Positions 6,199-54,645 of a DNA stretch of 54,645 bases are shown here, piece after piece; position 1 is the stretch's first letter; every line of letters starts with the position of its first letter. Location: positions 1 to 54,645 of the forward strand of contig CAJBFN010000011.1 of NCBI GenBank assembly GCA_903952435.1, read 5' to 3'. This stretch comes from an uncultured bacterium (GTDB lineage: Bacteria; Patescibacteriota; Saccharimonadia; Saccharimonadales; Saccharimonadaceae). Position numbers and translations under genes: made by a program. The notes beneath the pieces were generated by a model. It was given only the letters and a program-made list of their open reading frames with translations, ran no database searches and was not told the origin of the DNA.

Positions 6199-6600
6199 TT
6201 ATATATCGAGGTCGTCTAGTTCTGCAAGCTCTTCGCGAGTGGTTTTTGCATAATCAGATTCGTTTTCCACAGTTTCATCTGTTGAATTGTTCACAGGCTC
6301 GCTTTCGGTCGTTTCTGATGGCGTTGTATTGTTTTCGCGTGGACCTTGTTGCTCATCGGTATTTACAATTTTTAAGTTGTAACGAGCGTCATTTTTAGTA
6401 CCAAGTGCGCGTAAAAGCGTTCGCAAGCTTTGAGCGGTAACACCGCGCTTACCAATAACTCGGCCTAGATCCTCTGGATTTACTGTAAGTGTTAATAAAA
6501 CACCTTTTTCGTCAACTGATCGTTCGACAACGACGTCGTCAGGATGCCCGACGAGTGATTTAACTGTATATTCTACGAATTGTTGGTCTATTGTTGACAT
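6199..6600 (-). CDS. khpA: KH-domain RNA-binding protein KhpA
   Basis: A 133-residue protein. Residues 1-78 are a type II KH domain with the GxxG loop in VIGKRGVTAQSLRTLL, matching KhpA, which binds RNA, often with KhpB, and affects sRNA function and cell growth. An unusual acidic, Thr/Ser/Glu-rich tail of about 55 residues follows, ending in an E/D-rich helix; typical KhpA proteins are only about 75-85 residues. It lies just downstream of rpsP in the same orientation, the classical position. The tail is probably disordered and may contact other proteins. Confidence 0.92.
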   Translation of the reverse strand: MSTIDQQFVEYTVKSLVGHPDDVVVERSVDEKGVLLTLTVNPEDLGRVIGKRGVTAQSLRTLLRALGTKNDARYNLKIVNTDEQQGPRENNTTPSETTESEPVNNSTDETVENESDYAKTTREELAELDDLDI

Positions 6601-6656
6601 AATGCCCCCTTGCCTGTTCGGCCAATACTGTTAATAGTTTAATTGTAGCACTTTTG

Positions 6657-7040
6657 TTATTCAGCAACAGTAGGTTCGACTTCAGCGATTTCTTCAACTA
6701 CAGCTGGCTCTTCGACAACCTCAACCTTTGGTTGATTTTTGCGAAGTTTATCGGAATTTTTAATAGCACTAGTCTTTTTGTCGCTTTTAACTACCCATTT
6801 TGGCAATTTAACACCGGCATCAGCCAATAATTTAATAACTCGTGGTGATGGCTGTGCGCCGTTATCTAGATATTTTTGAGCAGTCTCAACCTGAATTTTG
6901 ACTTCCTTAGTATGGGGGTTGTATGTGCCGACATAAGCAACAACACGACCACTTAATGGATGTCGTTGAGATTCCTGAACAGCCACTCGGTAGACTGCAT
7001 AGCCTGTGCGGCCAACACGTTGCAAACGGATTGCTAGCAT
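6657..7040 (-). CDS. rpsP: 30S ribosomal protein bS16
   Basis: A 127-residue protein beginning MLAIRLQRVGRTGYAVYRVAVQ, followed by GRVVAYVGTYNP and a DAGVKLPKWVV segment, the bS16 core that helps assemble the 30S body. A C-terminal extension of about 45 residues is rich in Lys, then Glu, Val and Ala, and is longer than in most bacteria. First gene of the rpsP-khpA-trmD set, with an AAGGAA ribosome-binding site upstream. Confidence 0.96.
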   Translation of the reverse strand: MLAIRLQRVGRTGYAVYRVAVQESQRHPLSGRVVAYVGTYNPHTKEVKIQVETAQKYLDNGAQPSPRVIKLLADAGVKLPKWVVKSDKKTSAIKNSDKLRKNQPKVEVVEEPAVVEEIAEVEPTVAE

Positions 7041-7156
7041 TTTGTTATTATTTCCTTCTTCTTATCTTTAAAATTAATTTTTAACTCTTTGACAATATTA
7101 CACTGTTTTACATCTGATGTCAATCAGTTAAAATTGCCATTTTTTATAACCCAACC

Positions 7157-7185
7157 TTGACATTTTATTACGTTTATGCTATTAT
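7157..7185 (+). promoter_or_regulatory. Strong sigma-70 promoter for the 7310 gene
   Basis: TTGACA (7157-7162), a 17-base spacer and TATTAT (7180-7185) preceded by TGC (extended -10). Transcription should begin near 7192, giving a leader of about 118 bases. The leader holds a hairpin AGTAAAC/GTTTACT (about 7198-7216), a TGGCC/GGCC hairpin with a T run (about 7259-7276) that resembles a terminator, and a ribosome-binding site AAAAGGAGG before the ATG. Confidence 0.82.
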
Positions 7186-7226
7186 GTTGTTAATGCAAGT
7201 AAACAAGGAGTTTACTAGCACGTTAA

Positions 7227-7240
7227 AAAATCAGTTACTT
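7227..7240. repeat. Left arm of inverted repeat flanking the 7310 gene
   Basis: AAAATCAGTTACTT in the leader is the exact reverse complement of the 14 bases at 7951-7964, which begin on the last base of the stop codon. The two arms enclose the coding region and could pair in the mRNA. Confidence 0.7.
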
Positions 7241-7309
7241 ACTTTTACCTTGGTAGACTGGCCTTTTGGCCTTTTTATAAAAAATTATTAAAAGGAGGTT
7301 GTTTTTTTA

Positions 7310-7951
7310 ATGAAAAACAACAAAATTGTAACAATTATAATCGTATTAACGATTATAGCAACAGTGACATTGGCCACATCCATCAACAGCTACGCCTCGA
7401 CAGGTACAGACGAAGGTGTTGGCGTACCGATGCCAACATCCAGCCCAAGTGTTCCATTATGGATATCGACACCCCCAATTAGAACAGGGCTATCAATTAT
7501 ATCCGACCGAATAACAGGCTTAGTAATCTCATACCCCATGGACTGGGAGTATGGGAGTGCAACGATTAATAGTGATGACCACCTATCCGGCAGGTCTATA
7601 ACTATTTTTTCGCCAAACGGCTACAAGCTTAGATTTATCCGTCTAATATGGACGGGTAAACCAGACTGGATATTGGTAGTTGGCAAAAAAGATGCTATCA
7701 CTAATGATAAATCCAACCCAAATAACCCTACCCAAAAAGACAGCCCAGCCGTAGGCAGTATCTACTACCTATCGCCTGGAGGAGTTGGAGCAACGCTAAT
7801 CAGTGGCACAGGTTTCCATAGCGCTTGGACAGATAAAGAGATCGTTCAGGCACAGGACATTATAGATAATATAATGTTTGCCACGCCAACCAGCTATAGC
7901 GTGATGCCAACAACAGCAACTGCATTACCACCAGCTCCAAACGGACAATAA
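7310..7951 (+). CDS. Secreted or anchored protein of unknown function
   Basis: A 213-residue protein with a positively charged start, a hydrophobic segment (residues 6-24) and an Ala-Ser-containing possible signal-peptidase site around SYAST (about 26-30). The mature part has a Pro/Thr/Ser-rich linker, then a beta-rich domain (LVISYPMDWEYGSATI, IRLIWTGKPDWILVVGKK, GVGATLISGTGF) that could resemble PsbP/surface sandwich folds, and a Thr/Ala/Pro-rich tail. It is expressed alone from a very good promoter with a structured leader and a strong terminator. No catalytic motif is visible. The exact inverted repeat around the gene is unusual. Confidence 0.75.
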   Translation: MKNNKIVTIIIVLTIIATVTLATSINSYASTGTDEGVGVPMPTSSPSVPLWISTPPIRTGLSIISDRITGLVISYPMDWEYGSATINSDDHLSGRSITIFSPNGYKLRFIRLIWTGKPDWILVVGKKDAITNDKSNPNNPTQKDSPAVGSIYYLSPGGVGATLISGTGFHSAWTDKEIVQAQDIIDNIMFATPTSYSVMPTTATALPPAPNGQ

Positions 7952-7973
7952 AGTAACTGATTTTAACTCAAAA

Positions 7974-8004
7974 AGGTCGCGGAATTTTCCGCGACCTATT
8001 TTCT
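7974..8004 (+). terminator. Terminator between the 7310 gene and rnc
   Basis: AGGTCGCGG (7974-7982) pairs perfectly with CCGCGACCT (7989-7997), followed by ATTTTCTTT. A-rich on the other side, so it probably serves both converging genes. Confidence 0.85.
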
Positions 8005-8014
8005 TTGTCAAAAA

Positions 8015-8728
8015 TTATTTACCGCGCTGTGCATATTTTTCAAGCGCAGCTTGGGCGGCCTGTTGTTGAGCGACCTGCTTACTGGGACCACTACCAATAC
8101 CCATTAAATTATTGTTTACATAAACACCAAGTGTAAAAATCTTGTCATGATCTGGGCCAACTTCTTCATGAACACGATATTGTGGCGTTTGGTTATCGAC
8201 TCGCTGTGAAACCTCTTGCAGGTGAGATTTAGCATCACGCCAGCTACCGGTATCTAAAACATTATCTAATTTACTGATGATATTTTTAGCGATAAAGGCA
8301 GCCGCATCGTCATAACCGCGCTCTAAATAAATTGCACCAGTTACAGCCTCAAAGGCATTGGCTAATATTTGTTGGCGAGCTCGCTCACTCCCCTGCTTTT
8401 CGCCACGACTCATCCGTACAAGTGGCTCGTAGCCCAAAGCAACACCTGCAGCACCAATACTTTCAGTTCGCACCAAAGCAGCGCGCCAACTAGTTAAAAT
8501 ACCTTCAGGTTCAGAATGATTTTTATAAAGATAATCTGTTACGACAAGCTCTAAAACTGCATCACCTAAAAATTCCAGACGTTCATTATGCTCGCTAACG
8601 CTTTTTTTATGTTCATTAACATAACTACGGTGAGTAAGGGCTGTGATTAATAACTGCAAGTCCTTAAATTCGAAACCGAGCTTTTCCTTTGCAAATTCTT
8701 GGTACGGCGCTGTTTGCATCCCACTCAT
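8015..8728 (-). CDS. rnc: Ribonuclease III
   Basis: A 237-residue enzyme with the RNase III signature ERLEFLGDAVLELVV (residues about 49-63), the second catalytic acidic segment in the ANAFEAVTGAIYLE helix, and a C-terminal dsRNA-binding domain ending in GxGxSKQVAQQQAAQAALE. It cleaves double-stranded RNA in rRNA and mRNA maturation. The start overlaps the upstream Nudix gene by 4 bases, and nusB lies before that, so nusB-nudix-rnc looks like one operon for rRNA processing. A longer N terminus than usual is not seen; the length is normal. Confidence 0.96.
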   Translation of the reverse strand: MSGMQTAPYQEFAKEKLGFEFKDLQLLITALTHRSYVNEHKKSVSEHNERLEFLGDAVLELVVTDYLYKNHSEPEGILTSWRAALVRTESIGAAGVALGYEPLVRMSRGEKQGSERARQQILANAFEAVTGAIYLERGYDDAAAFIAKNIISKLDNVLDTGSWRDAKSHLQEVSQRVDNQTPQYRVHEEVGPDHDKIFTLGVYVNNNLMGIGSGPSKQVAQQQAAQAALEKYAQRGK

Positions 8729-9222
8729 AAATTTTCCTCTCGTATTCGCTTCATAGCGAGTAACATTAATTTACCTATATCCTCGTATTCAATAGCTTCC
8801 AAAGCATCCTGAAACTTGAACCATTTAATGTCATTCATCCATTCTTCTTTTTGAGTCGCATCGGTGTCGCCAAGTGCTTTGACTAGATAGATTTGAGTCG
8901 TCATCAAAACCAGCCGGTCGATTCTGCGATAACGAAAATGTATTTTGCCCAACCAACCTAACATCTCAATATCTGTAAGACCCGCCTCCTCGCCAATCTC
9001 ACGTTTAGCGGTTTCGAGCGCAGTTTCACCTGGTTCAATGTGGCCTTTCGGAATCGTCCAACGATTTTTACCATCTTGAATCAAAAGAATCTCAACACCG
9101 CCATCCTTATCGCGACGAAAAATAATACCACCAGATGTTGGCTCGCGGACTATCTCTTGAATTTGATGTTTTTTGCGATTAAAGTATTTTTTTAACTGCT
9201 CAATTTGTGGCACTGCTGTCAT
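8725..9222 (-). CDS. Nudix hydrolase
   Basis: About 165 residues from the ATG at 9222. A perfect Nudix box is present: [23 protein letters not shown] fits G-x5-E-x7-REUXEE-x-GU with all metal-binding glutamates (split here as GHIEPGE and REIGEEAGL). The surrounding [15 protein letters not shown] and RWTIPKG segments match Ap4A/NTP-type Nudix enzymes. An upstream ATG at 9270 would add 16 residues but overlap nusB by 71 bases, so the internal start is preferred; it still overlaps nusB by 23. It is embedded between nusB and rnc, which suggests co-expression with rRNA maturation. The substrate is unknown. Confidence 0.88.
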
Positions 9223-9661
9223 CGGTTTTATCCTCCACAAGCGTACGGTAAGCGGTACCAAGTACCCCATTTATAAACTTGCTTGAGTTATCAGAACCAA
9301 ACGCTTTGGCAAGCTCAACAGCCTCATTAATTGCAACTTTTGGCGGAACTATCTTTGCTTGATATAGCAATTCATACAGGCCAATCCGCAAAATATTGCG
9401 ATCAATTCGGGCAATTTGATCAATTGGCCACTCCGGAGCGATTGGCTGTATCTTGGCATCGAGATCATCTTGATTTTCGATAACCCCTTTTACGATCGAT
9501 CCAACAAAGTCCTTGTCGTCAATTGTAGACTCATATCTGGCAAGGTTACGAGCTAAAATTTCATCAACATCAACCGAATCGTCAGCTGATTGCTTGCGAA
9601 ATTCATATTCGTAAAGTGTCTGGAGTGCTACAATGCGACCAAGATGCCGATTAGATGCCAT
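9200..9661 (-). CDS. nusB: Transcription antitermination protein NusB
   Basis: A 153-residue all-helical protein of the NusB family: [20 protein letters not shown] at the start, a central segment [22 protein letters not shown] and [27 protein letters not shown], the family's conserved core. NusB with NusE (S10) binds boxA RNA during rRNA synthesis. It is the first gene of the nusB-nudix-rnc set. Its stop codon is inside the following Nudix reading frame. Confidence 0.95.
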
Positions 9662-9699
9662 AGCGCTTTGATTCTTTCTTTATTATGTTTTAAGGTAAT

Positions 9700-9867
9700 T
9701 TAGTTTGTTGCTATTTTTTTCTTAGCAAGTGCTTTGCCAGATTCTTTAGCGGTTGTAAACGCCTTGACTGGTGATTTTTTGTTAACACGGCGCGCTAATT
9801 CAAGTCGCAAATGACTGCGACGAAGGCCGGTTTTTCGTGGGCTAGTTTGCTTTTTTGGTTGACCCAT
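9700..9867 (-). CDS. rpmF: 50S ribosomal protein bL32
   Basis: A 55-residue open reading frame read by eye: it starts MGQPKKQTSPRKTGLRRSHL, matching the bL32 pattern of a VPKKK/QPKK start, a TS.R..RRSH motif, and a lysine-rich tail (ending KALAKKKIATN, TAA at 9700-9702). The AGGAGC ribosome-binding site is 8 bases before the ATG. The usual C-terminal four-cysteine zinc knot of many bL32 proteins is absent, as in other cysteine-free (C-) variants. It sits between nusB and leuS on the same strand. Confidence 0.88.
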   Translation of the reverse strand: MGQPKKQTSPRKTGLRRSHLRLELARRVNKKSPVKAFTTAKESGKALAKKKIATN

Positions 9868-9955
9868 TTAAAGAGCTCCTTTGTAGGTTATTATAATAAA
9901 ACTTGTATACATTATACCGAATAAATCACTTTGACTCAAGTGCGTTTTAAAACGT

Positions 9956-12853
9956 TTATTCAGCGACGACAATATTGACTAATTTCCCGGGGATATAGAT
10001 GACTTTGGTTGGTTGTTTGCCGTCTGTATACTTCAAAACATTTTCTTGAACTTGTGCCAAACGCTTGATATCATCAGCTGGCATTTCGCTTGAAACCTCA
10101 ATTTTGGCACGAAGCTTACTGTTAACTTGAATAACAATTGTTAGCATATCAGATTGCAAATACTTATCGTCCCATTTCGGCCAATGATCAATATGAATCG
10201 TGTCGCTATGACCAATTTGGCCCCATAACTCTTCGGTGATATGGGGCGCAAATGGCGATAACACCATCAACAAGCTTTCGATCGCATAATCCCAAGCAGC
10301 GGATTTGCCGATACTATCTTTTAACTTATAATATCCATTAACTGCTTCCATCATAGCCGAGATAGAGGTATTAAACTTCTCATTTTCGATATCTTCAGTG
10401 ACTTTTTTAGCAAGTTTATGGGCAATCGTCAGCACTTCGCGCTCAGTTTTTTCATCCGATTTCGACTCACCCGCCTCGATATACTCTTGAGCCAAAGTCC
10501 AAACTCGATTCAAAAAACGATATGTGCCAGGGACACCACGAGTGTCCCAAGGCGCTTCCATATCGTAAGGCGCAATAAACATCTCGTAAACCCGTAGGCT
10601 GTCAGCGCCATAACCACTGTTCATAATTTCAAGCGGATCAACTACGTTATTGCGAGATTTGCTCATTTTTGTGCCATCGGCTGCCAAAATATAGGCGTTA
10701 TACATCATTCGCTTGAATGGTTCGGGATGCGACACAAGGCCTAACTTAAAGAAGAATCTTTGCCAAAACCTAGAATACAACAAATGAGCTACAGCATGGT
10801 CGGCGCCATTATAATAATCTACTGGGCCCCAATATTTTTCAATTTCTGGATCCCAAGCTTGCTTATCGTTAAATGGATCAAGATATCTTAAGAAATACCA
10901 ACTACTACAAGCATAGCCGTCCATAGTATCAGTTTCACGCTTGGCTGGTTTGCCGCATTTTGGACAAGCTGTATTGACCCAATCAGTGGCCGATTCTAGC
11001 GCCGAAACATTACCGCCCTTTGGTTTGAAATCTTCAACCTCTGGTAATACTACTGGTAATTGATTATCTGGCACAGGCACGGCGCCACAATCTTCACAAT
11101 GAATAATTGGAATCGGCGCACCCCAATAACGCTGACGAGAAATTAGCCAATCACGCATCTTATAAGTTACTTTTGATCTACCATTGCCATCTTTTTCAAG
11201 CCACACAACGATTTTTTCACGAGCCTCACTTGAGGTCATACCGTCAAATTCACCGCTGTTGGTTAAAATACCTTCTTCGGTATAAAGTCCTTTATTCGAT
11301 TTTATCCGGTCTAACCATATATCCAATTCAGCACAAGTCATCCTATCTTTTGTAATATCTGACATTTTTAACCAAACTAGATTATATTTGCCCTGATCTT
11401 CTTCGCTAATATCATCTTGTTCGTCATCAATTAATTCAAATAATAATCCATTCACAAAACCACGACGATTTTGGTTTTTATGAGCAGCATAATACTCAGC
11501 AACCACTTGGCCACCCAAAACCTTCATTAACTTTAAATTTTTATAGCCAGTCTCTTCGTATATCTCTCTCTTTGCCGCATTTACTATATCCCCACCGTCA
11601 GATTCTTCAACACCACCTACAACAAATGTCGTCCATGGAAAATCTTTATATTCTAAACATAAATATTCATCTGTTTTAGGATTATATACAATTCCATGAA
11701 TATTTTGTCTAATCACAATCTCCTTATCATCTATAGGTGGATTTTTAGTATCTATACGATGAGGCAATACAACTTCTTTAACCTCAATCCCAAACTTCTT
11801 GGCAAATTCAAAATCACGTTCGTCATGAGCCGGAACAGCCATAATTGCACCAGTTCCGTAACCAGATAACACATAATCAGCTATCCAAATCGGAACCCTG
11901 GCGCTATTAACCGGGTTAATACCGTAGCTACCAGTAAAGACGCCTGTTTTCTCTCTGTTTTCATTCATTCGTTCAATTTCTGACTTACAAGCAGCTTGTG
12001 ATATATAATCTTCGACAGATTTGCGATTATCATCAGTTGCTAAATCTTTAACCAGCTCGTGCTCAGGTGCAATAACCATAAAAGTAGCACCAAATAGTGT
12101 ATCTGGACGAGTTGTAAATACTGTCAACTTTTTATCACTGCCGTCAACCTTAAAATCAACTTCAGCGCCTTCGGATCGGCCAATCCAGTTTTTCTGCATA
12201 GTCTTAACCATTTCAGTCCAATCTAAATCATCAGTTGCCTCTAATATCTCATCTGCATAATCTGTAATTTTGAAAAACCACTGTTTTAGATTGCGTTTTG
12301 AAACCTGATTGCCACATCGCCAACATTTACCGCCTTCAACTTGCTCATTCGCTAAAACTGTTTGATCTGTTTCACACCACCATTGAGGACTTTGTTTCTG
12401 ATACGCCAAACCATGTTCAAATAATTTCACAAAAATCCACTGCGTCCATCTGTAATAAGCTGGATCGGAAGTGCTAATTTCTTTGCTCCAGTCATAGCTA
12501 TAGCCAAGTCTTTTTAACTGCTCTTTAAATCTACCTAATACTTCTTCGTGTGCTTCACGAGGGTTTTTACCTAATTTGATAGCAAAGTTTTCAACTGGCA
12601 AACCAAATGAATCCCAGCCAATTGGGTTATAGGCATTATATCCCTGCTGGCGTTTTGCTCGAACTTTAATGTCACTAAACTGAAAAGTTCGGCCATGACC
12701 GACATGAATACCCGCACCAGTAACGCCTGGTAGCATACTCATACCGTAATATTTCGGCTTTGAGTGATCAGAAAAATCTACTTTATAGGTTTGATTATCA
12801 TCCCAAACCTTTTGCCATTTTTTTTCAATCTCAACTGGGTTGTAGCGCTTCAT
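9956..12853 (-). CDS. leuS: Leucyl-tRNA synthetase with an inserted Nudix domain
   Basis: A 965-residue class I synthetase charging tRNA-Leu. Seen: HVGH (residues 50-53, HIGH motif), the CWRCG zinc-like segment (177-181), the CP1 editing domain with TTRPDTLFGATFMV (247-260) and the catalytic-aspartate region HDERDFEFA (343-351), KMSKS near residue 755, and an anticodon-binding C-terminal half. Residues about 366-518 are an extra Nudix domain inserted at the end of the CP1 editing domain, with the core REIYEETGY (429-437). Bacterial LeuRS is usually 800-880 residues, so the excess equals this insertion. An extended -10 (TGC then TATACT, 12863-12868) lies 9 bases before the ATG, suggesting a leaderless mRNA. 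Confidence 0.96.
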   Translation of the reverse strand: MKRYNPVEIEKKWQKVWDDNQTYKVDFSDHSKPKYYGMSMLPGVTGAGIHVGHGRTFQFSDIKVRAKRQQGYNAYNPIGWDSFGLPVENFAIKLGKNPREAHEEVLGRFKEQLKRLGYSYDWSKEISTSDPAYYRWTQWIFVKLFEHGLAYQKQSPQWWCETDQTVLANEQVEGGKCWRCGNQVSKRNLKQWFFKITDYADEILEATDDLDWTEMVKTMQKNWIGRSEGAEVDFKVDGSDKKLTVFTTRPDTLFGATFMVIAPEHELVKDLATDDNRKSVEDYISQAACKSEIERMNENREKTGVFTGSYGINPVNSARVPIWIADYVLSGYGTGAIMAVPAHDERDFEFAKKFGIEVKEVVLPHRIDTKNPPIDDKEIVIRQNIHGIVYNPKTDEYLCLEYKDFPWTTFVVGGVEESDGGDIVNAAKREIYEETGYKNLKLMKVLGGQVVAEYYAAHKNQNRRGFVNGLLFELIDDEQDDISEEDQGKYNLVWLKMSDITKDRMTCAELDIWLDRIKSNKGLYTEEGILTNSGEFDGMTSSEAREKIVVWLEKDGNGRSKVTYKMRDWLISRQRYWGAPIPIIHCEDCGAVPVPDNQLPVVLPEVEDFKPKGGNVSALESATDWVNTACPKCGKPAKRETDTMDGYACSSWYFLRYLDPFNDKQAWDPEIEKYWGPVDYYNGADHAVAHLLYSRFWQRFFFKLGLVSHPEPFKRMMYNAYILAADGTKMSKSRNNVVDPLEIMNSGYGADSLRVYEMFIAPYDMEAPWDTRGVPGTYRFLNRVWTLAQEYIEAGESKSDEKTEREVLTIAHKLAKKVTEDIENEKFNTSISAMMEAVNGYYKLKDSIGKSAAWDYAIESLLMVLSPFAPHITEELWGQIGHSDTIHIDHWPKWDDKYLQSDMLTIVIQVNSKLRAKIEVSSEMPADDIKRLAQVQENVLKYTDGKQPTKVIYIPGKLVNIVVAE
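11300..11758 (-). other. Nudix domain insertion inside LeuRS
   Basis: Codes for LeuRS residues about 366-518. It has the Nudix features: HGIVYNPKTDEYLCLEY strand pair, WTTFVVGG, then the box GGVEES..NAAKREIYEETGY, in which the REIYEETGY core has all glutamates but the G-x5-E part is spaced by one residue and lacks the expected first glutamate. The C-terminal end (ELDIWLDRI) is helical. On either side the normal LeuRS CP1 sequence resumes (VKEVV before, GILTNSGEFDGM after), with the reading frame intact. It is therefore a domain insertion, not a sequence error. Confidence 0.85.
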
Positions 12854-26281: not shown

Positions 26282-28447
26282 CTATTTGGTCAGTTCTGTC
26301 CTAGAACCCAAGGTATCAATTTCATAATGAATATCAAATTCTTTTAATAATGTATCACCAGTGTATGTATCCGTTACATTATCACCGACCCTAGATATTT
26401 TTATTGATAATTGACTAGATAATGTTTTACCGATACCAGATATAGCACCAAACCCAACTAGCTGATGTTTGAATGCCGTGCCATCACCTGCATCTAGAAT
26501 TTCCACTGTAGTGAAGCTACCAGGTTCAGTGTCATTAATATTAGTCCATTTATATTCCATCCGCCATAAAACATTACCGGTATTAGTCGTAGTCGGCTGC
26601 CAGTGTATGTGTGGGTAGATGTCTGAGCCAACTTTCCACGCATGTGGCATTTGACCCAGAATAGCAATTGCTTGGATACCTGGCGCACCCGCCGTAAAGC
26701 CAATATTAGCCGTATCAAAAACCATCGCGTTTGCCGCGCCAGCTGGGTTAATGGCTGTCGCTGGAAACCGTAAATCTTCCCAAACTGTTGCATCACCATT
26801 AAATACTAATGTTCCATCGGTTTCAAATTGTGAGAAATTAACATCATCCGAACCGAATTTAGCACCAATTAGATTAACCGACAGGCCACTAGCTCCATTT
26901 AATAATGAAGTTCCGTTTAATTTAACAGATATAGTGTCGTCTGTTATATCAACACCGTTGCCGGCTGTATATGACCCTGCTGGACCCTGAGGTCCCATTG
27001 CGCCAACTGGACCCTGAACACCTTGAATTCCTTGGACTCCTTGTACGCCAGTTAGACCAGTCGCACCCTGTATACCCTGGATGCCTTGAACACCTTGAGC
27101 GCCAGCTGCTCCTACTGGACCCTGAATACCTTCCTCTCCCTCTTCGCCGCGCAAACCTTGGACACCTTGAATACCCTGAGCTCCTGTATCGCCCTTATCA
27201 CCTTTAGGGCCTTGAATTCCTTGGACACCTTGTGCTCCGGTCGCGCCAACTGGGCCTTGGACGCCCTGTTCTCCAGTATCACCTTTATCACCCTTTAGCC
27301 CCTGGATACCTTGGATACCTTGAGTACCCTGAATTCCCTGAATACCTTGGATACCCTGTTCACCTTGGGCACCAACTATGCCAGATAATCCTAATGACGT
27401 CATGGCATATGAAACATGTTCTGTGCCATTATGTGCGAAATGCGTTGATTCACCGCCAACTGTGTTTTTGGCATATATTTTAACCACCAATCTATCAGTT
27501 GATTCCATAGCATCTGATCCGGAATACGTATAACCGGTGATAACTTCGGCAATCGAGGAGCTAGTAATATCAGCACTGGCAGTATTAAATAATTCCGTTT
27601 CAACCCCAGCCAAATCACGCCTGTAAACTCGATAAACTATATTACCGCTACCGCCACTAACATATGTATAAGTATGAAACTGCCACAATCCAACTGGTAA
27701 CTGGCTAACACCTGGCACATTAGGCTCAGTTGCGTATGCGTCAACTAAATATTCCTGATTTGGATTCGCGATAATAGTTGATTCATCTTGTTCCATACCA
27801 CCACCAGGGACACGCAAAAAACTTTCATACCCCGTAACATCTGATTCTACATCTTGGAACCAATATAATTGTCCTGCACTCTGACCATTAACACCAGCCA
27901 CACCCTGAGCACCCTGAACACCTTGGGAACCCTGAGCACCTTGGACGCCCTGTGCGCCATCTGTGCCATCATCTCCGGCCAAACCAATCTCACCTTGAAT
28001 ACCACGCAAACCCTGAATACCCATCAAACCCCTCTCGCCCTGTAGACCAGTTAATCCAGTTTCACCCCTAGGGCCAACCGCACCAGTCAAGCCAATATCA
28101 CCCCGAGGACCAGTTGCGCCAATAGGACCTTGTGGGCCGACCAGATTTGCCTGGTTTTCACTAATATTAAATGCTATGTTGCCCGAATCCGAATTACTAG
28201 ATGATATAATTGTTGTGCCATCAGCCAAACTATTAATTGTTGAGGTATTTATGTCACTCAAATCAACTCGTCCAATACATTCATCATCTACTTCGACAAA
28301 AATACCACAATAAATATCACCAAAAACATGTGACAGGGCGTTATCAAAATCTGACCGAGAACCATTCCTCATGAACCAGATGCCAAAAACAATCAACAAC
28401 ACTACAACCGTGGTGGCAACTATAATTTTTTTGAATCTTGGTTTCAT
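26282..28447 (-). CDS. Collagen-like surface protein with phage-type C-terminal domain
   Basis: A 721-residue protein. A membrane anchor (residues 8-26) leads to a cysteine pair segment (IYCGIF, DECIG). Collagen-like Gly-X-Y repeats run at 104-188 (about 28 triplets) and 359-491 (about 44 triplets, rich in GIQ, GVQ, GDK). Between them is a globular domain of about 165 residues, and at the end (about 560-721) a domain with AWKVGSDIYPHIHWQPTTT and VLWRMEYKW, a pattern I associate with phage virion or tail proteins. The Gly-X-Y stretches imply trimeric rods on the cell surface. It is likely an adhesin or epibiont fibre; function is inferred. Confidence 0.88.
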   Translation of the reverse strand: MKPRFKKIIVATTVVVLLIVFGIWFMRNGSRSDFDNALSHVFGDIYCGIFVEVDDECIGRVDLSDINTSTINSLADGTTIISSSNSDSGNIAFNISENQANLVGPQGPIGATGPRGDIGLTGAVGPRGETGLTGLQGERGLMGIQGLRGIQGEIGLAGDDGTDGAQGVQGAQGSQGVQGAQGVAGVNGQSAGQLYWFQDVESDVTGYESFLRVPGGGMEQDESTIIANPNQEYLVDAYATEPNVPGVSQLPVGLWQFHTYTYVSGGSGNIVYRVYRRDLAGVETELFNTASADITSSSIAEVITGYTYSGSDAMESTDRLVVKIYAKNTVGGESTHFAHNGTEHVSYAMTSLGLSGIVGAQGEQGIQGIQGIQGTQGIQGIQGLKGDKGDTGEQGVQGPVGATGAQGVQGIQGPKGDKGDTGAQGIQGVQGLRGEEGEEGIQGPVGAAGAQGVQGIQGIQGATGLTGVQGVQGIQGVQGPVGAMGPQGPAGSYTAGNGVDITDDTISVKLNGTSLLNGASGLSVNLIGAKFGSDDVNFSQFETDGTLVFNGDATVWEDLRFPATAINPAGAANAMVFDTANIGFTAGAPGIQAIAILGQMPHAWKVGSDIYPHIHWQPTTTNTGNVLWRMEYKWTNINDTEPGSFTTVEILDAGDGTAFKHQLVGFGAISGIGKTLSSQLSIKISRVGDNVTDTYTGDTLLKEFDIHYEIDTLGSRTELTK

Positions 28448-46457: not shown

Positions 46458-47651
46458 CTATTCGTAACGCATAGCGTCAAGTGCGCTAATTTTGGCAGCC
46501 CTGCGAGCTGGATATAGACCAGTCAACAAGCTTATCATCAAAGATATAAATAATATAAATACAACAAGCACCGCTGGTATATAAAATAATTCAACAGCCT
46601 GGTTCCCAGATCCACTAGCTAAAGCAAATATACTGTAATTTAATATGCCACCAGCACCCAAGCCTATTGCTACGCCAGCAACGCTGCCAAATAGCCCAAT
46701 AAGCATAGATTCAAGAGTAAATATCCAATAGATATTACTGCGCATAGTGCCAAGAGCCTTCATAAAGCCAACTTCTCTGGTTTTTTCTATCAAGCTAATC
46801 GTCAGTGTATTAAACATACCAAGACACGCAACTATAATTGCTATACCACCGAATGAAACCAATACCACCTGGAAGATAGCAAAGAACTGGTTAATTTGAT
46901 CGATCGTCTCTTTGATTGAGGTCGTATTAAAGCCCATACTCTCAATTTGCAATTTAGCCTGATTTACATAATCCTTACTTTCCATCTTTACCTTAGCATT
47001 AGTGTAATTTACGACACCATTATCTATAAAAATGTGCAATGGAACATATACAAATGGAGCACTGGTATCATTTATGACACCTACGATTTTCAAATCTTCC
47101 TTGACAGTCTTAGTACCACTACCTTTCTCTAAAGATTCAGACCTAATAACAACATCGACACTAATATCTTTACCAATAATATCGACATCCGATACTCCGA
47201 GCTGTTTTTGTGCCGCAATATTAATTAAAGCACCATCCGAAGAATTGTCTTCATACTGTTCACCTAACGAGATCCTAGTATCATCTAATTTCAAATATGA
47301 ATTATTTTTACCATAAATAACTCCATCAATACTTGAATCGCCAGCCTTTATCCTAGCTGCCGCGCTTACTTGAGGTTGAGCTTCGGAAACATTACCGAGT
47401 TTTGTAAATTTATCTATTGTCTCGTCATTTAATGACAAAATCTTTGACTTGCCTATACTAACGTCCAAAACCTGTAAAGCATTTATATTAGATATCTGAT
47501 CAGTCGATATTCTCTGCAATCCCAATGCAAAAGATATCAAAAACACCACAAAAGCAACAGATATAGCCACGCCACTAGCAGTCAATATAGTACGCATTTT
47601 ATGCGAGAATAAATTACGATATGATAAATACAAAAGATACGATGGTCTCAT
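46458..47651 (-). CDS. MacB/FtsX-type ABC transporter permease
   Basis: A 397-residue protein with one membrane helix at the N terminus (about 20-42), a large exterior MacB-like domain (about 45-275) and three helices at the end (about 285-390). The [22 protein letters not shown] start and [17 protein letters not shown] coupling segment are typical of the LolC/MacB family, which works mechanically on the exterior rather than carrying substrate through a channel. It is 4 bases overlapped with its ATPase gene, so both are one unit. It may serve the giant surface protein gene upstream. Confidence 0.92.
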
Positions 47652-48418
47652 AAAACTTCACCTCGCGCCATAGCCAATAAATCGCTAGGATATTGGTCTT
47701 CGTCTACTTTTACATCTTTACGGTTGACTATTTTTTCGATAATTCCGTCTTTCATGTATATAACTTTTGTAGCATATTTTTCATATTCTGGATTATGCGA
47801 AACCATCAAAATAGTTCTTCTAGCTTGCTCATTGATAGTTTTAAATATACCCATAACCTCATCAGCTGAAACTGTATCAAGGTTACCGGTCGGCTCGTCT
47901 GCGACTATAATCCATGGGTTATTTATGATGGCTCGGCATATTGAAACTTTTTGTTGCTGACCGCCAGATAACTCGGTTGGCGTATACCTAGAAAATTCAG
48001 CTAACTTCAAAAGTTCAAGTGTTCTTTCGGCGCGTTTGATAGCAGCCCTGCGGCTATAACCAGATATCATTAACGGATAAGCTACATTCTCAACTACATT
48101 CAATGATTTAATCCAGTTAGCTTGTTGGTGTACTATACCAAACCTATCCTGACGAACTTTTGCCCTAGCGTCCTCACCTAAATCATATAATTTTCGTCCA
48201 CGAATAATAATATCACCGGAATTAGGTCTTTCTAGGCCAATAATCGTATTTAAAAGTGTAGATTTGCCACAACCAGACTGTCCAAACAAAATTACAAACT
48301 CACCCGGCATAATATTTAAATCAACACCCTTTAGAACATCAACTTGGTTTTTTCCAACCTGAAAAGCTTTATTTATATTTTGTATGCCGATGATAGGTGG
48401 CCCACTACTTATACCCAT
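47648..48418 (-). CDS. LolD/MacB-type ABC transporter ATPase
   Basis: A 256-residue ATPase with Walker A LFGQSGCGKST (about 47-57), signature TELSGGQQQK, Walker B WIIVADEPTGNLD and H-loop MVSHNPEY. It pairs with the permease gene, which overlaps its stop (ATGA). It begins 17 bases after the giant surface protein, so the three genes are probably one transcript. Confidence 0.93.
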   Translation of the reverse strand: MGISSGPPIIGIQNINKAFQVGKNQVDVLKGVDLNIMPGEFVILFGQSGCGKSTLLNTIIGLERPNSGDIIIRGRKLYDLGEDARAKVRQDRFGIVHQQANWIKSLNVVENVAYPLMISGYSRRAAIKRAERTLELLKLAEFSRYTPTELSGGQQQKVSICRAIINNPWIIVADEPTGNLDTVSADEVMGIFKTINEQARRTILMVSHNPEYEKYATKVIYMKDGIIEKIVNRKDVKVDEDQYPSDLLAMARGEVL

Positions 48419-48434
48419 ATTACTAACTAGTATA

Positions 48435-51400
48435 TCACTTTCCTATATTAAACAACCAGCCCAAAGACGATTGTAATGAGTTAATAATTATGTCAAAAAC
48501 AGAAGATCTAGCTTGCTCGGTTAGGACAGACTGTTGTTCAGAGACGCCTTTGTTACCTAAAGCGTCTTTGGATGATGTTCTTATGCGGTAAACACTAGAT
48601 GGTCGTAAGTTAGTTAAGACAACAACATGTGAGGTAGTTAGGTTGGCGTCTTCTTGGGTTTTGCTGCCGTAGCTATCACCAGTTACGCCAAAGTCGTATT
48701 CAACTTGAGATGTGCTAGGTTCATCAGTTTGCCAAGAGACAACGATTTGACTTTTGGCAGCTGTGCCAAATTCAGTGTTAGAGACTTCAGTGGTGACGTT
48801 GGCTGTAGCTGGTGGACGAGTGTCGTAGGCGGTTTTAATGCGTTGAGTATCAGAGATGGCGCTGTTGCCGAATTGATCTACGCCAATAGTATTCATTAGA
48901 TAATATGTATCATCGAATAAGCCGTTGATTGTAATGGTGTGTTTGGTTTCAAGTTTAGTTTTAACAGTTTCTTGGATGGTGCCACCATCAGGCTTAAATT
49001 GAACGACTGATGTAGTTGGAACATTAGTGTCCCAGGTTACTTGGAAGGCAGCGGTGGCTTGATCGTTAAGTGGTTGAAATCTTACATTAGATATTTTTGG
49101 ATATTTTTGAGTTTCGAAGGTGTAGTCGTCGGAGGTAATCTGGTTACCATCAATGTCGGTAATGCGAACTGCAAAATGGTAGGTGCTAGAATCTTCCAGC
49201 CCTTCTAATCTAACTGTATGAACAGTAGTAGCGCCACCGGATATATTCTTTAGTTCACTTGAGTAGTTTGTAGACTTACCATATAGTAGGTCGGATATAG
49301 CTGGCTCGGATGTATACCAAGTTAGGATGGCTGTATATAGTCGAATATCTTGAATTGAGACACGCTCAACGCGAGGCGCTGGTCGTGTCCTGAACATACC
49401 ATTAGCACAAATCTTATTACCATCTTTGTCAGTTGACTTAACCCTATAATAATAAGTTGAGTCGGATTTTAATCCAGTCACTAGAACTTCATGGTCACTG
49501 ACATGATCATCTTGACCTTGTGAGACACCGTAGACTTCTTTACAAAGTGTAGTCTCGGGTATGACAGTCTCGCCAATCTCAACGAATGAGGACGCCTTAT
49601 GCTGATCAGATGTATCATCAGTAGAAGTCGTCCATTGGATATTAGCCGTCGAGACTTTAGCTGCGACCGCTGGGCCATTAGTAATGTCAGGGGCTCTAGT
49701 ATAGCGACCAGTTGGAGATATAGGTAATGCCATAGTAGGCCCGTTTGTATTATTTGCACTATCCCTAGATCGAACTTCATAATAATAGGTTGTGCCGCCG
49801 GCAACTCCAGCGTCAACAAATGAGGTGCCAGTACTGCTGCCGATTGGACTGGCTGGATAACCAAAGTTAATGCCATCAATTGATCGGTAGATATCATAAC
49901 CACTAACACCAATGCCTGAATTCTCAGCTGAGGGGGCTGTCCATTTTATAGTAACTGAATATTCTAAAGTATCGCGATTTGAGGTATCAAATAACTGGAC
50001 GCTTGTTGGTAGACCTGGAGCGCTAGTGTCGCAATAGAATTCGACCTTGGCCATTTTAGATTCATTACCATAAGCGATTATATCTTGGCTTCCGTCAGTG
50101 CCAATCGCCATAACATAAAATGTATTAGCATTTGGCATAACCCTTGTTGCAGCTGGAATGTTTGACAGGGTTACCTGTCCGCTTGTTGTATTATATGTGG
50201 CCGCAGGTATTTTGCCTAAAATAACATCACTTAGTTTTATGAATACCGAATTAGTATCGGTCACAGGACTATTAATTGAATAGCGATAACCTATAATATC
50301 ACCCTGATAGGCGCCTGCATCAGCTTTTGATGGAGGCAGCCAACTAAACGTAAATGAATTAGCCTGGGTTGGAACTATAGGATCGACAATCAAAGATAAT
50401 GGTGCGGACGGCGCATTACCAGTGTAGTAAAAATTAATATCTTTAATAATACTACTTACATTGCCAGCATTATCAATGGCGCGTATATATAAAACATTTG
50501 TACCCGGATGAACTTGATTACTATTGGATAATGTTAATGTAGTGCCGACAGTCTGAGACGAACCAGACCAATCATCATCCGCATCATTTATCTTATATTG
50601 GTATCCCGCTATACCCGATTGACCTTGACCTAATAAATCGGTGCTGGCTGCCCAGTTGAATGTAAAGTTGTTATTAGATGACCAACCAAATGGATCAACA
50701 GTAAGCGAAGAGACGGCCGTCGGAGGTGTTTTGTCGTATTTATATGTAAATAAAGTGACTGGATCGGAAATATTGCCAGCGTTATCGACTGTGGCCACTC
50801 TTAAATAATAGTCGCCTTCATTAGATATAGCGGTTGATGGTGTGAAGATTTGTAGGTCTAGAGTATTAAAGGTATTAGGCACTGAGTCAGTTCGAGATTG
50901 AAAGGTACCGGCGGTATATGCAGCGGTATCGTCTTGGCCAAAATAAACATAATATCCATTTATTCCCGATTGATCAACCGCTACGCTATTGATTATATCG
51001 GGATCATTAGCACCATAAAATTTGAAAATTGGATTGGAATAATTAAAGAATTTTTCCTGAGTAATATCAATAACAACTCGTAAGCCTATATTATTTTGAT
51101 CTGATAAAACATTATTATCTACATCGACATATTCACCTTGGCCATTGGTTTTATAAGTTGTTACTGTTAGATCAGTTGTACCGTTAAAAAGATTGACATT
51201 AGTTGGGCCCGTGGGAGCAATTATGTCGTGCATATACATAAGCGAAAAGTCATTAATCTTAGGAGTAACCAACGCATCAGAAGTAGCTAGAACTGCACGT
51301 ATTTCAATATATCTTGATATAGGCAAGCTAGTTAAGTCGCCCGCGCCAGTAGTAGTTCCAGCACCAGTTTGATTGAATGATGTCCAATCAGACCAAGTTT

Positions 51401-54395
51401 TATTGTCGGTGCCAGTCCTAACACTAAAACTAATAGAAGTGCTAGCCGGTAAGGCATCAGAATTCCAATTAATTGAATACCCCCTTGTTTTTTTGCCAGC
51501 GCCAATATCTAAAGTAACGCCCGACAAAACACCTAGTTTTTCATATACTACACTATCTGCAGAAAATATATTGGTTTGAACCGGAGTGAGACGTTGGGTG
51601 ATTGAGCCATCGCCTAGGCGTCCAGATGTATTAAGTCCCCAGCCCCAAGCGGTATCTTCATCTGGGTCAGCGGTGATACTATTTTTAATAGCTAAAGAAT
51701 GAGAGCTCCCAGCGGATATGGTAGTTATACCGGTTAACCAGCCGGTGCCGGCGGTGTCTTTGACTTGAACTGGGCTAAGGCGCTGAGTGGTTGATCCGTC
51801 GCCTAATTGGCCATTTGAGTTCCATCCCCAGGCCCAGACGGTGCCATTATTTTTGAGAGCTATAGAGTAGGCACCCCCTGCTGCTGCAGATATGTCAGTA
51901 ATACCAGCAAGAGCACTGATTTGGACTGGCTTAGTTGTATTCATAGGCAAACCTGAACCATTACCTACTGTTTCAGTAAGCCCCCAGGCCCAGACAGTAC
52001 CATCGTTTTTAAGTGCTAGAGAATGAGAGCTCCCTGCATCTACAGAAGTGATATCAGCTAGATAACCCGTGCCGGCTGTGTCTTTAACTTTAACTGGAAT
52101 TGACACAGTAGCAGTTAACCCATTACCTAATTGACCATTTGAGTTAAGACCCCAGGCCCAAACACCATCATCAGCAACTCGTATCGAAACATTGTTTTGA
52201 TCTGATAAGACATTATTGCTTGCGTCAACATAAATTCCTGCAGTATTTGTTTTATATTTTTTAATAGCGAGAGAATGACTTCCTCCGGCCGCAATTGCCG
52301 TTACGCCGCCCAAATAGCCAATGCTGCTAGCATCTTTGACTCGAACTGGGGTTGAGCGCTGAGATGTTGAGCCATCACCTAGTCGGCTGTTCGTATTAAG
52401 CCCCCAAGCCCAGACGGTGCCGTCGTTTTTGAGAGCCAAAGAATGAGAACTGCCGGCGGCTATGGCAGTGATGCCAGCTAGATAGCCGGTGCCATCATTA
52501 GTATCTTTGACTTGAACTGGGATTGAGCTAGAAGTAGTTGAGCCATTGCCTAATTGACCGTTCGTATTAAGGCCCCAGGACCAGACGGTGCCATCATTTT
52601 TGAGAGCCATAGAGTAAGAGATGCCGGCAGCTATGGCAGTAATGCCAGTTAAATAACCGGTGCCATCATTAGTATCTTTGACTTGAACTGGGATTGAGCT
52701 AGAAGTAGTTGAGCTATTGCCTAATTGACCGTTCGTATTAAGGCCCCAGGACCAGACGGTGCCATCGTTTTTCACAGCCAAGGAATGAGAGCTGCCGGCA
52801 ACTATAGCTTTTACATCGCTTAGATCAGTAAGTACATCTGATGAGTATACTTCATTAACTACTTGAAACGGCGTTAAGCGCTGAGCAACCGAATTGTCAC
52901 CCAACCGACCGTTCGTATTAACACCCCAGGCCCAAATAGTGCCGTCGTTTTTGAGAGCTAGAGAATAACCGTTCCCATTATCTACGGCCGTTATACCAGT
53001 TAAGAATCCGGTGCCGGCGGTGTCTTTGACTTGAACTGGGGTTAGGCTCTCAGTTTGTGAATTATCGCCTAGTTGACCATTGGCATTATAGCCCCAGGCC
53101 CAGACGGTGCCGTCGTTTTTGAGAGCCAAAGAATGACTATTTTGAGCACCACCATCTACGGAAATAACGTCAGCCAGATAACTAGTGCCGGCGGTGTCTT
53201 TGACTTGAACTGGAGTAAGGCTCTGACTGTATGAGTCGTCGCCTAATTGACCGTTAAAATTTGATCCCCAGGCCCAGACGGTGCCGTCATTTTTTACAGC
53301 CATTGAGTGAGAGAACCCGGCAGCTATAGATGTTATACCAGTTAAAAATCCGGTGCCGGCGGTGTCTTTGACTTGAATTGGGGTTGTGCTAATTGAAACA
53401 AATGAATTAACGCCTAGTTGGCCCTCTCCGTTAACACCCCAGGCCCAGACGGTGCCGTCATTTTTTACAGCCATTGAGTGAGAGAACCCGGCAGCTATAG
53501 ATGTTATACCAGTTAAAAATCCGGTGCCGGCGGTGTCTTTGACCTGAATTGGGGTAAAACTTGTATTAATTGAACCATTACCTAACTCACCATTATCACC
53601 AAGTCCCCAGGACCAGACAGTACCGTCATTTTTGAGAGCTATGGAATGATAGGCACCGACAGCTACGGTTTTTATACCAGTTAAAAATCCAGTGCCGGCG
53701 GTGTCTTTGACCTGAATTGGAGTAAGGCTCTGGGTTGATGAATTATCGCCTAATTGAAAACTACCGTTATTGCCCCAGGCCCAGACGGTGCCGTCATTTT
53801 TTACAGACATTGAGTGATAATAACCGGCAGCTATAGCTATTATATCAGTCAAATAACCGGTGCCAGCGGTATCTTTGACTTGAACTGGAGCAAGTCTCTG
53901 AGTTGTTGAATTGTCACCTAATTGACCGTTTGTATTAAGCCCCCAGGCCCAAACAGTGCCGTCGTTTTTGAGAGCTAAGGAATGATTATCACCAGCAACT
54001 ATAGACGTAATACCAGTTAAATTATTCGCAGCAGTAAGCCTAGCTAATGCCAAATCAGACTCTGCGCCACTGCTTGCACATGTAATATCTGAATAATCAT
54101 CTCCTGAAATCGCCAAACCACTAAAACTATTCATCTTGCAAGCGCCAGACTGACCATCAAGCACATTTTTATTCATGTAAAAATCAGCATTAGATGACCA
54201 TGTTAATCTAGATTGAGCCTTTACTGTCATACTTGGCAAAAGCATACTAGCGAACATTGAAACTATAATAAAAAGCGTAGCTATAAAATAAAAACGGTGG
54301 CCTTTTGAAGACTTAAATCGCAAACAAGTAGCACGAACAGATTTAATTAATCTATTTATGAACCCTTTGAACACTCCCCGCATCTTTTGAAGCAT
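48435..54395 (-). CDS. Giant RCC1-repeat/Fn3 surface protein
   Basis: A 1986-residue protein. A basic head and a membrane or signal helix (about 36-54) lead to 14 RCC1 blades (about residues 120-960; each has a G-x-HS-x-ALKNDGTVWAWG core and about 57 residues), enough for two seven-bladed propellers. Blades 11 and 14 have insertions. A beta domain (about 975-1080) and then about seven Fn3/Ig-like modules follow, and the C terminus ends with an amphipathic IINSLQSSLGWLF stretch. RCC1 propellers and Fn3 modules fit an extracellular adhesin. Blades 4/5 and 8/9 are nearly identical in DNA. TACAAT lies 6 bases before the ATG, so the mRNA is probably leaderless. Confidence 0.85.
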   Translation of the reverse strand: MLQKMRGVFKGFINRLIKSVRATCLRFKSSKGHRFYFIATLFIIVSMFASMLLPSMTVKAQSRLTWSSNADFYMNKNVLDGQSGACKMNSFSGLAISGDDYSDITCASSGAESDLALARLTAANNLTGITSIVAGDNHSLALKNDGTVWAWGLNTNGQLGDNSTTQRLAPVQVKDTAGTGYLTDIIAIAAGYYHSMSVKNDGTVWAWGNNGSFQLGDNSSTQSLTPIQVKDTAGTGFLTGIKTVAVGAYHSIALKNDGTVWSWGLGDNGELGNGSINTSFTPIQVKDTAGTGFLTGITSIAAGFSHSMAVKNDGTVWAWGVNGEGQLGVNSFVSISTTPIQVKDTAGTGFLTGITSIAAGFSHSMAVKNDGTVWAWGSNFNGQLGDDSYSQSLTPVQVKDTAGTSYLADVISVDGGAQNSHSLALKNDGTVWAWGYNANGQLGDNSQTESLTPVQVKDTAGTGFLTGITAVDNGNGYSLALKNDGTIWAWGVNTNGRLGDNSVAQRLTPFQVVNEVYSSDVLTDLSDVKAIVAGSSHSLAVKNDGTVWSWGLNTNGQLGNSSTTSSSIPVQVKDTNDGTGYLTGITAIAAGISYSMALKNDGTVWSWGLNTNGQLGNGSTTSSSIPVQVKDTNDGTGYLAGITAIAAGSSHSLALKNDGTVWAWGLNTNSRLGDGSTSQRSTPVRVKDASSIGYLGGVTAIAAGGSHSLAIKKYKTNTAGIYVDASNNVLSDQNNVSIRVADDGVWAWGLNSNGQLGNGLTATVSIPVKVKDTAGTGYLADITSVDAGSSHSLALKNDGTVWAWGLTETVGNGSGLPMNTTKPVQISALAGITDISAAAGGAYSIALKNNGTVWAWGWNSNGQLGDGSTTQRLSPVQVKDTAGTGWLTGITTISAGSSHSLAIKNSITADPDEDTAWGWGLNTSGRLGDGSITQRLTPVQTNIFSADSVVYEKLGVLSGVTLDIGAGKKTRGYSINWNSDALPASTSISFSVRTGTDNKTWSDWTSFNQTGAGTTTGAGDLTSLPISRYIEIRAVLATSDALVTPKINDFSLMYMHDIIAPTGPTNVNLFNGTTDLTVTTYKTNGQGEYVDVDNNVLSDQNNIGLRVVIDITQEKFFNYSNPIFKFYGANDPDIINSVAVDQSGINGYYVYFGQDDTAAYTAGTFQSRTDSVPNTFNTLDLQIFTPSTAISNEGDYYLRVATVDNAGNISDPVTLFTYKYDKTPPTAVSSLTVDPFGWSSNNNFTFNWAASTDLLGQGQSGIAGYQYKINDADDDWSGSSQTVGTTLTLSNSNQVHPGTNVLYIRAIDNAGNVSSIIKDINFYYTGNAPSAPLSLIVDPIVPTQANSFTFSWLPPSKADAGAYQGDIIGYRYSINSPVTDTNSVFIKLSDVILGKIPAATYNTTSGQVTLSNIPAATRVMPNANTFYVMAIGTDGSQDIIAYGNESKMAKVEFYCDTSAPGLPTSVQLFDTSNRDTLEYSVTIKWTAPSAENSGIGVSGYDIYRSIDGINFGYPASPIGSSTGTSFVDAGVAGGTTYYYEVRSRDSANNTNGPTMALPISPTGRYTRAPDITNGPAVAAKVSTANIQWTTSTDDTSDQHKASSFVEIGETVIPETTLCKEVYGVSQGQDDHVSDHEVLVTGLKSDSTYYYRVKSTDKDGNKICANGMFRTRPAPRVERVSIQDIRLYTAILTWYTSEPAISDLLYGKSTNYSSELKNISGGATTVHTVRLEGLEDSSTYHFAVRITDIDGNQITSDDYTFETQKYPKISNVRFQPLNDQATAAFQVTWDTNVPTTSVVQFKPDGGTIQETVKTKLETKHTITINGLFDDTYYLMNTIGVDQFGNSAISDTQRIKTAYDTRPPATANVTTEVSNTEFGTAAKSQIVVSWQTDEPSTSQVEYDFGVTGDSYGSKTQEDANLTTSHVVVLTNLRPSSVYRIRTSSKDALGNKGVSEQQSVLTEQARSSVFDIIINSLQSSLGWLFNIGK
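51075..51160. repeat. Internal repeat: Fn3-region copy of the blade-11 insert
   Basis: This stretch encodes YKTNGQGEYVDVDNNVLSDQ and a few more residues. A related stretch at 52187-52260 encodes YKTNTAGIYVDASNNVLSDQ inside RCC1 blade 11. The shared segment is out of place in a propeller blade, which suggests internal copying. Confidence 0.65.
53301..53560. repeat. Near-identical RCC1 blade repeats
   Basis: The bases around 53301-53390 and 53461-53550 are almost identical, encoding blades 4 and 5 (both contain ITSIAAGFSHSMAVKNDG). Similar near-identity is seen for blades 8 and 9 around 52480-52790. Such identity implies recent duplication or gene conversion. Confidence 0.8.
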
Positions 54396-54401
54396 AACTA
54401 T

Positions 54402-54410
54402 ATTGTAGCA
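54402..54410 (-). promoter_or_regulatory. Extended -10 promoter of the giant protein gene
   Basis: On the minus strand TGC precedes TACAAT (54402-54407), 6 bases before the ATG at 54395. The mRNA should be leaderless. Confidence 0.5.
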
Positions 54411-54466
54411 TACGAACAGATGACAGCCTAAGCATTTAAAATGTTATTTTTAAGATAAGTCAGGAT

Positions 54467-54645
54467 CTATTTTTCCATCCCAAACAACCACCCCAAAGAC
54501 GACTGTAGCGAGTTAATAATTATGTCAAGGATTGAGGAACGGGCTTGTTCGGTTAGGACAGATTGTTGTTCAGAGACACCTTTGTTGCCAGATGCATCGT
54601 TAGATACAGCTCGTAAGTGGTAAGCACTAGATGGTCTTAGATCAG
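54467..54645 (-). CDS. 3' end of a paralogous giant surface protein (partial)
   Basis: The reading frame runs off the right edge and stops at 54467-54469 (TAG). Its last 58 or so residues end LRPSSAYHLRAVSND, then GNKGVSEQQSVLTEQARSS, IIINSLQSSLGWLFGMEK, almost the same as the end of the 48435 gene. A second giant protein of the same family therefore lies upstream in tandem. The space of 71 bases between them holds only the promoter of the downstream copy. Confidence 0.85.
   Translation of the reverse strand, partial: DLRPSSAYHLRAVSNDASGNKGVSEQQSVLTEQARSSILDIIINSLQSSLGWLFGMEK

Follow-up and report, generated by a model that had tools for sequence, protein, structure and literature searches.

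A giant surface protein with an ABC transporter pair of its own is encoded at one end of the window, the 54,645-nt stretch of DNA analysed here. The window makes up the whole of contig C11, one of the 11 contigs of a genome of 686 kb. The source bacterium is an ultra-small member of the Patescibacteria and is probably host-dependent. The giant gene (gene B), an ABC ATPase gene and a MacB/FtsX-type permease gene form an apparently undescribed, conserved three-gene set, and it is highly probable that they constitute a module with an exported, propeller-headed surface protein. At the level of sequence, the module comprises an export signal, an exchangeable head, an Ig/Fn3 stalk of ~1000 aa, a terminal amphipathic helix and a co-inherited MacB/FtsX (type VII) pair. 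A preliminary description of this DNA had concentrated on the repeats of the giant protein and overlooked the main feature, namely the coupling to a dedicated ABC transporter together with family-wide exchange of heads. No description of the stalk-ABC module was found in the open-access literature searched, outside which most subscription papers lie, and an earlier account may exist.

Gene B is a single intact open reading frame of 1986 codons on the minus strand. The protein begins with an export signal (aa 1-60) and a short lead, after which come the 14 RCC1 blades (aa ~130-950); Ig/Fn3-like domains then occupy ~1000 aa, and a helix forms the C terminus:

48435-54395, minus strand: gene B, a 1986-aa exported surface protein with RCC1 heads and Ig/Fn3 stalk (open reading frame and domain searches).
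54216-54395, minus strand: N-terminal export signal, aa 1-60, with a basic n-region, a hydrophobic core and a cleavage-like site, VKA↓Q (from sequence; cleavage putative).
48516-51443, minus strand: stalk, a string of about 9-10 Ig/Fn3-like beta-sandwich domains (aa ~985-1960) and the module that defines the family (domain and profile searches, model, structure search).
48450-48500, minus strand: C-terminal amphipathic helix, aa 1966-1982 (conservation as the terminal element in nearly every member of the family, and model).

Nearly all stalk proteins begin with a basic n-region and a single hydrophobic segment. An AxA-like site follows this segment in 55 of 61 relatives, and there is no further transmembrane segment. 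The C-terminal helix has a family consensus of roughly S-x-[LIF]-x-[IL]-[IV]-x-x-[LF]-x-x-x-[FL]-[GF]. An AlphaFold model of the stalk is a string of beta sandwiches with a pLDDT of 76, in which the helix at aa 1966-1982 itself reaches only ~60. Foldseek searches with this model returned generic Ig/Fn3 strings (thick-filament proteins, contactin, gp130 and the base of Aureispira GhpA) and no specific relative. The export signal, RCC1 propellers and Ig/Fn3 stalk agree with the earlier view of gene B as an adhesin-like surface protein, as does the RCC1 propeller of PilX2 in TM7x (PMC12206443).

The two partner genes lie downstream of gene B on the same strand, with matches above cut-off to PF00005 (ABC_tran), PF12704 (MacB_PCD) and PF02687 (FtsX):

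47648-48418, minus strand: ABC ATPase, partner gene 16 nt downstream of gene B (Pfam and family neighbourhoods).
46458-47651, minus strand: MacB/FtsX-type permease (MacB_PCD and FtsX) with a 4-nt overlap with the ATPase gene, of a dedicated partner lineage (Pfam and profile).

Relatives were collected with a profile (A1) of the last 499 residues, which gave 207 matching stretches in genome contigs; 77 loci were kept. These are almost all from Patescibacteria, including Saccharibacteria, Berkelbacteria, Howlettbacteria, Roizman-, Shapiro-, Woese- and Moranbacteria, CPR3, WS2 and WS6. Two stalks are on 4.4-kb contigs titled Actinomycetota and Omnitrophota (L101 and L093), most likely mis-binned Patescibacteria contigs. 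Downstream sequence is available for 81 non-redundant stalk genes, of which 73 are followed directly 3' on the same strand by an ATPase gene and 4 more by another stalk gene, against a background for ATPase adjacency of 2/269 among the other genes of the same loci. No adjacent ABC was detected for four stalk genes, two of which (L085 and L105) have ABC parts one open reading frame further. The permease gene comes next after the ATPase gene and is fused to it in some members. The MacB-like fusions are 650-970 aa in length (L078, L097, L079, L077, L056, L045), and several Microgenomates-type members have a separate permease of ~620-730 aa with a larger outer part.

A similar coupling is found when whole genomes are compared. 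Over 294 genomes of the class, scores of the permease profile (A6) are bimodal, with at least 377 bits in 22 genomes and otherwise at most 183, except for one 134-aa fragment at a contig edge. A full-length stalk is present in 21 of the 294, and all 21 are among the 22 genomes with a high-scoring permease (the profiles were built partly from class genomes, and 14 of the 21 stalk-bearing genomes contributed no row). In the 22nd, G246, the contig begins within the ATPase gene, which places any stalk gene out of view. Tree distances correlate between stalk and ATPase (0.76), stalk and permease (0.79) and ATPase and permease (0.92), the permuted maximum being 0.16; common ancestry of the genomes must account for some of this agreement. 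Judged from these comparisons of sequence, the permease lineage is dedicated to the stalk, and the ATPase-permease pair is co-inherited with it. The window locus itself has a full-length match to the stalk profile, the C-terminal helix and an adjacent ATPase with a permease of the dedicated lineage, the features by which the stalk-ABC family is recognised. Giant Fn3/ConA surface proteins are known in Patescibacteria (PMC13059738, PMC8080830), and in keeping with these gene B could be an ordinary giant RCC1/Fn3 adhesin that lies beside an unrelated ABC transporter by chance. This is contradicted by adjacency, co-occurrence and tree congruence over many lineages, and is very improbable indeed.

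Heads are exchanged throughout the family. In 38 other complete members, they include LamG (12), kelch (9), DUF2341 (5), F5/8 type C (3), FGE-sulfatase (3) and others, and RCC1 is not among the 25 commonest head families of these members. Apart from the window genome, G018 (UBA6025) was the only one in which a stalk with an RCC1 head was seen. In the G018 protein (L032, 1-1290), the head is interrupted by a run of N. Tandem genes within one genome can also carry different heads; one example is L049, with a BNR-type propeller and then a head without a Pfam match. At L044 (G049), head and stalk are on two overlapping frames, 6537-9050 and 9047-12547 on the minus strand, through either a frameshift or a genuine split.

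The best explanation of the whole, held tentatively and with slightly less than even confidence, is a surface-display module of Patescibacteria with an exchangeable head, in which the ABC pair acts on the stalk through the C-terminal helix. The gene B protein would pass the membrane by Sec and would then lose its signal by cleavage. Because the signal would be cleaved and there is no other transmembrane segment, the C-terminal helix would be left as the sole membrane-associating part; the stalk would rise from the cell surface and hold the head farthest out. The ABC pair would not translocate the chain, working instead at the outer face by mechanotransmission in the manner of LolCDE or FtsEX, MacB-class ABCs that act on partners already exported and do not themselves translocate them (PMC5985334). 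By recognising the C-terminal helix, the pair may seat, extract or release the adhesin. The helix is a conceivable point of ABC action, a tentative assignment made from its conservation and position only. The head would grip the surface of a host or prey cell, and from its domain types host binding is rather likely; as a counterpoint, RCC1, kelch and LamG folds have non-adhesive roles too. The module is sporadic (21/294 class genomes) and is therefore not required for episymbiotic life in general.

Signal transmission is the function of FtsEX, which is of the same transporter class, and sensing and cell division both involve MacB-like transporters (PMC11627006, PMC5985334). The ABC pair might likewise be an FtsEX-like signal transmitter with the giant protein as its extracellular sensor or effector, such that host contact is relayed through stalk and helix to the permease, or ATP use alters the stalk. 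Dedicated one-to-one pairing suits such a complex as well as it suits a transport substrate. However, tandem stalk genes precede one ABC pair in some genomes, which suits clients better than a fixed sensor, and no conserved regulator or hydrolase gene follows the ABC pair in the family neighbourhoods. Adhesin display or release is favoured over a contact sensor, which is the main rival and rather unlikely.

Another role to be considered is that of a functional stand-in for MacA or YknX beside an exporter of small peptides or toxins, the stalk guiding the export path. Many Gram-positive adaptor genes are in operons with macB homologues (PMC5985334), and the gene order here is similar. In contrast to the companions in MacAB and YknXYZ, however, the giant protein has no MacA-type adaptor domain (lipoyl, hairpin or beta-barrel) found by Pfam; its stalk is Ig/Fn3 with a string-like predicted fold, and the heads of the family are too variable for a conduit. 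Such a role is improbable.

The display module resembles MacB, LolCDE and FtsEX (type VII, PMC5985334) in its partner permease with MacB_PCD and FtsX domains and in an ATPase that is separate or fused. It differs from them in its companion, a giant Ig/Fn3 surface protein instead of a MacA adaptor, lipoprotein or peptidoglycan hydrolase. Client extraction by LolCDE is an analogy only, in that the client part here would be the C-terminal helix and not a lipid anchor. If the display reading is true, a new kind of client would join the peptides, lipoproteins and cell-wall hydrolases already known as partners of the MacB/LolCDE/FtsEX class. The SiiE/LapA-class type I adhesins are likewise giant and repetitive and have their own ABC transporter. 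Type I adhesins, however, have no signal at the N terminus and leave the cytoplasm by being driven through their ABC, which is of the HlyB class. Gene B has an export signal at its N terminus, and its ABC is of the MacB class.

Giant Fn3/ConA/WD40 proteins of Vampirococcus, S. methylophilicida and Patescibacterium share with gene B their size, domain shuffling, surface location and proposed role in host contact (PMC8080830, PMC13059738, PMC11809585). The available parts of these accounts describe no stalk family, C-terminal helix or ABC pairing, and it is by description only that those proteins are set apart. An essential Fn3 protein, SEML1_0890, has been reported in Southlakia epibionticum (PMC10633639). 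Host choice and grip by Patescibacteria are a main open question of the field, and an exchangeable head combined with a membrane end and an ABC partner that stay the same would make a countable candidate determinant of host specificity in several lineages. The stalk and ABC profiles from this analysis can find the module in any genome. More speculatively, the module may represent an unrecognised display system, mostly confined to Patescibacteria, with a MacB-class pair exerting mechanical control over a giant adhesin through its C-terminal helix and with RCC1, kelch, BNR, LamG or F5/8C heads setting host range.

The head of gene B scores far above cut-off for RCC1 (Pfam PF00415, E=4e-153) and WD40_RLD (597 bits), and its blade region aligns with the structures of UVR8, HERC2 and RCC1. 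The preliminary description had counted 14 RCC1 blades in the 1986-residue protein, and the same number was obtained here from W-x-W-G anchors (14, aa 149 to 917) and from PF00415 matches in the window genome (14, of which 13 are over cut-off). Anchors are spaced by 52-63 residues, and by 84 at blade 11, which holds an insert. The local blade profile used for relatives gives 15 pieces in gene B, presumably since the insert splits blade 11. The best reading, already proposed in the preliminary description, is a head of two predicted seven-bladed propellers:

52812-54008, minus strand: RCC1 propeller 1, blades 1-7, aa ~130-528 (domain searches, anchors, blade counts of relatives).
51546-52811, minus strand: RCC1 propeller 2, blades 8-14, aa ~529-950 (same evidence).

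This reading is well supported by blade counts, and each ring would be closed. The 19 complete RCC1 proteins of related genomes have 7 blades in 15 cases, 14 in one (L169), 21 in one (L035) and 6 in two; 17 of the 19 are thus multiples of seven. In L169, a 93-residue break follows blade 7. The VKDTAGTGxL tail is absent from blades 7 and 14 of gene B, which might be closing blades, and blade 12 is also divergent. An AlphaFold model of the 14-blade head, made from a 4-row alignment, had a pLDDT of 46 and was set aside as a test of two rings.

RCC1 proteins are common in the relatives (L159-L176), many with pilin-type N termini and nearly always 7, 14 or 21 blades, and two genomes (G029 and G012) encode several each. 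In L035 (8302-12342, minus strand), a PilX-like pilin N terminus precedes 21 RCC1 blades with a strict spacing of 55 residues and a mean blade identity of 70%; this array is probably three seven-bladed propellers. In Nanosynbacter lyticus TM7x, PilX2 carries an RCC1 propeller on a type IV minor pilin, is needed for T4P-2 function and is a proposed adhesin (PMC12206443). Gene B, known from its sequence alone, is like PilX2 in placing one or more seven-bladed RCC1 propellers at the surface of a Saccharibacterium. Unlike PilX2, it has no pilin-like N terminus; an export signal of the conventional kind takes that place, and an Ig/Fn3 stalk and a dedicated ABC pair are further differences.

The blades also record duplications within gene B:

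53266-53543, minus strand: span of an exact 107-nt direct repeat of blades 4 and 5, at an offset of 171 nt (coordinates +/- 2; repeat comparison).
52167-52256, minus strand: ~30-aa insert in blade 11 (KYKTNTAGIYVDASNNVLSDQNN...) (match to a stalk segment).
51066-51155, minus strand: stalk segment (~30 aa) in the first stalk domains, counterpart of the blade-11 insert (70% nt identity).

In codon-aligned pairwise comparison, the blades are 49-90% identical in DNA and 26-86% in protein. Their DNA had been called near-identical, which is overstated except for the exact repeat of blades 4 and 5, from its sequence a recent internal duplication or conversion, and for blades 8 and 9, which share two shorter repeats of 58 and 51 nt. 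When gene B was compared with four other proteins, the closest match to each of its blades was always a sister blade, and this likeness points to amplification or homogenisation in its own lineage. The copied insert reported within blade 11 does match a segment elsewhere in the protein, the stalk counterpart, at 70% nt and 59% aa identity. Among the 40 genomes searched, only the two gene B copies reached significance, and none of the 39 relatives has a significant copy. A mobile element was rejected on this ground, and the insert looks like a one-off internal copy that is older than the 107-nt repeat.

Directly upstream of gene B is the end of a second stalk gene, gene A:

54467-54645, minus strand: 3' end of gene A (58 codons and stop), a stalk paralogue (similarity to the C terminus of gene B).

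The 58 codons are 78% (aa) and 79% (nt) identical to the C terminus of gene B, a similarity previously described as almost identical, which is in part family-wide conservation and not only recent copying. The assembly breaks inside gene A. Another contig of the genome, C1, ends in a 977-codon stalk gene that is open at its 3' end (G000:C1:165745-168677), with an export signal and stalk and without RCC1. Because the C1 gene can be matched to gene B only as far as residue 1798 and the fragment on C11 picks up near residue 1928, the two are taken, as the simple explanation, to be one gene A, probably split by an assembly gap of ~390 nt (about 130 aa missing). Gene A therefore very probably has no RCC1 head; of the tandem giant RCC1/Fn3 proteins first described, the upstream paralogue is real, and its propellers very probably are not. 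Assembly duplication of the paralogue was rejected as unlikely: nucleotide identity is 79% in the tail and falls to about 50% in most of the stalk, and blades also differ at many sites.

In windows of 30 codons, genes A and B are 36-64% identical over most of the shared stalk, 98% identical at aa 1746-1775, and then lower again. The near-identical tract is ~160 nt long with 2 mismatches (~99%), between flanks of ~50-65% identity:

49031-49192, minus strand: inter-paralogue near-identical tract (gene nt 5204-5365), with the paralogue on C1 as partner (comparison of A and B).

Such a tract is the signature of recent gene conversion or unequal exchange, conversion being the best reading, and it may have caused the nearby assembly break. 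Five tandem stalk pairs of other genomes have no such near-identical tract, and conversion as a general property of tandem stalk genes was rejected. The suggestion of a recombination-prone family thus holds for the window genome, with its ~160-nt tract and 107-nt exact repeat, and does not extend to the family at large.

The same two features would be expected of an antigenic-variation locus, in which genes A and B and the internal blades are donors for programmed switching of the exposed head, and one account already raises domain reshuffling and antigenic variation for other giant Patescibacteria proteins (PMC11809585). The tract, however, is in the stalk and outside the head, the C1 gene has no RCC1 and so offers no blade donor, there is no RCC1 elsewhere in the incomplete window assembly, and the other tandem pairs have no tract. 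Programmed switching is accordingly quite unlikely. Under the display reading, binding would diversify as heads are exchanged, blades are duplicated and tandem stalk genes undergo conversion with one another.

The window also encodes another candidate surface fibre of this 0.69-Mb genome, a 721-aa collagen-like protein with short tandem repeats (26282-28447, minus strand; Pfam Collagen, E=5.5e-36).
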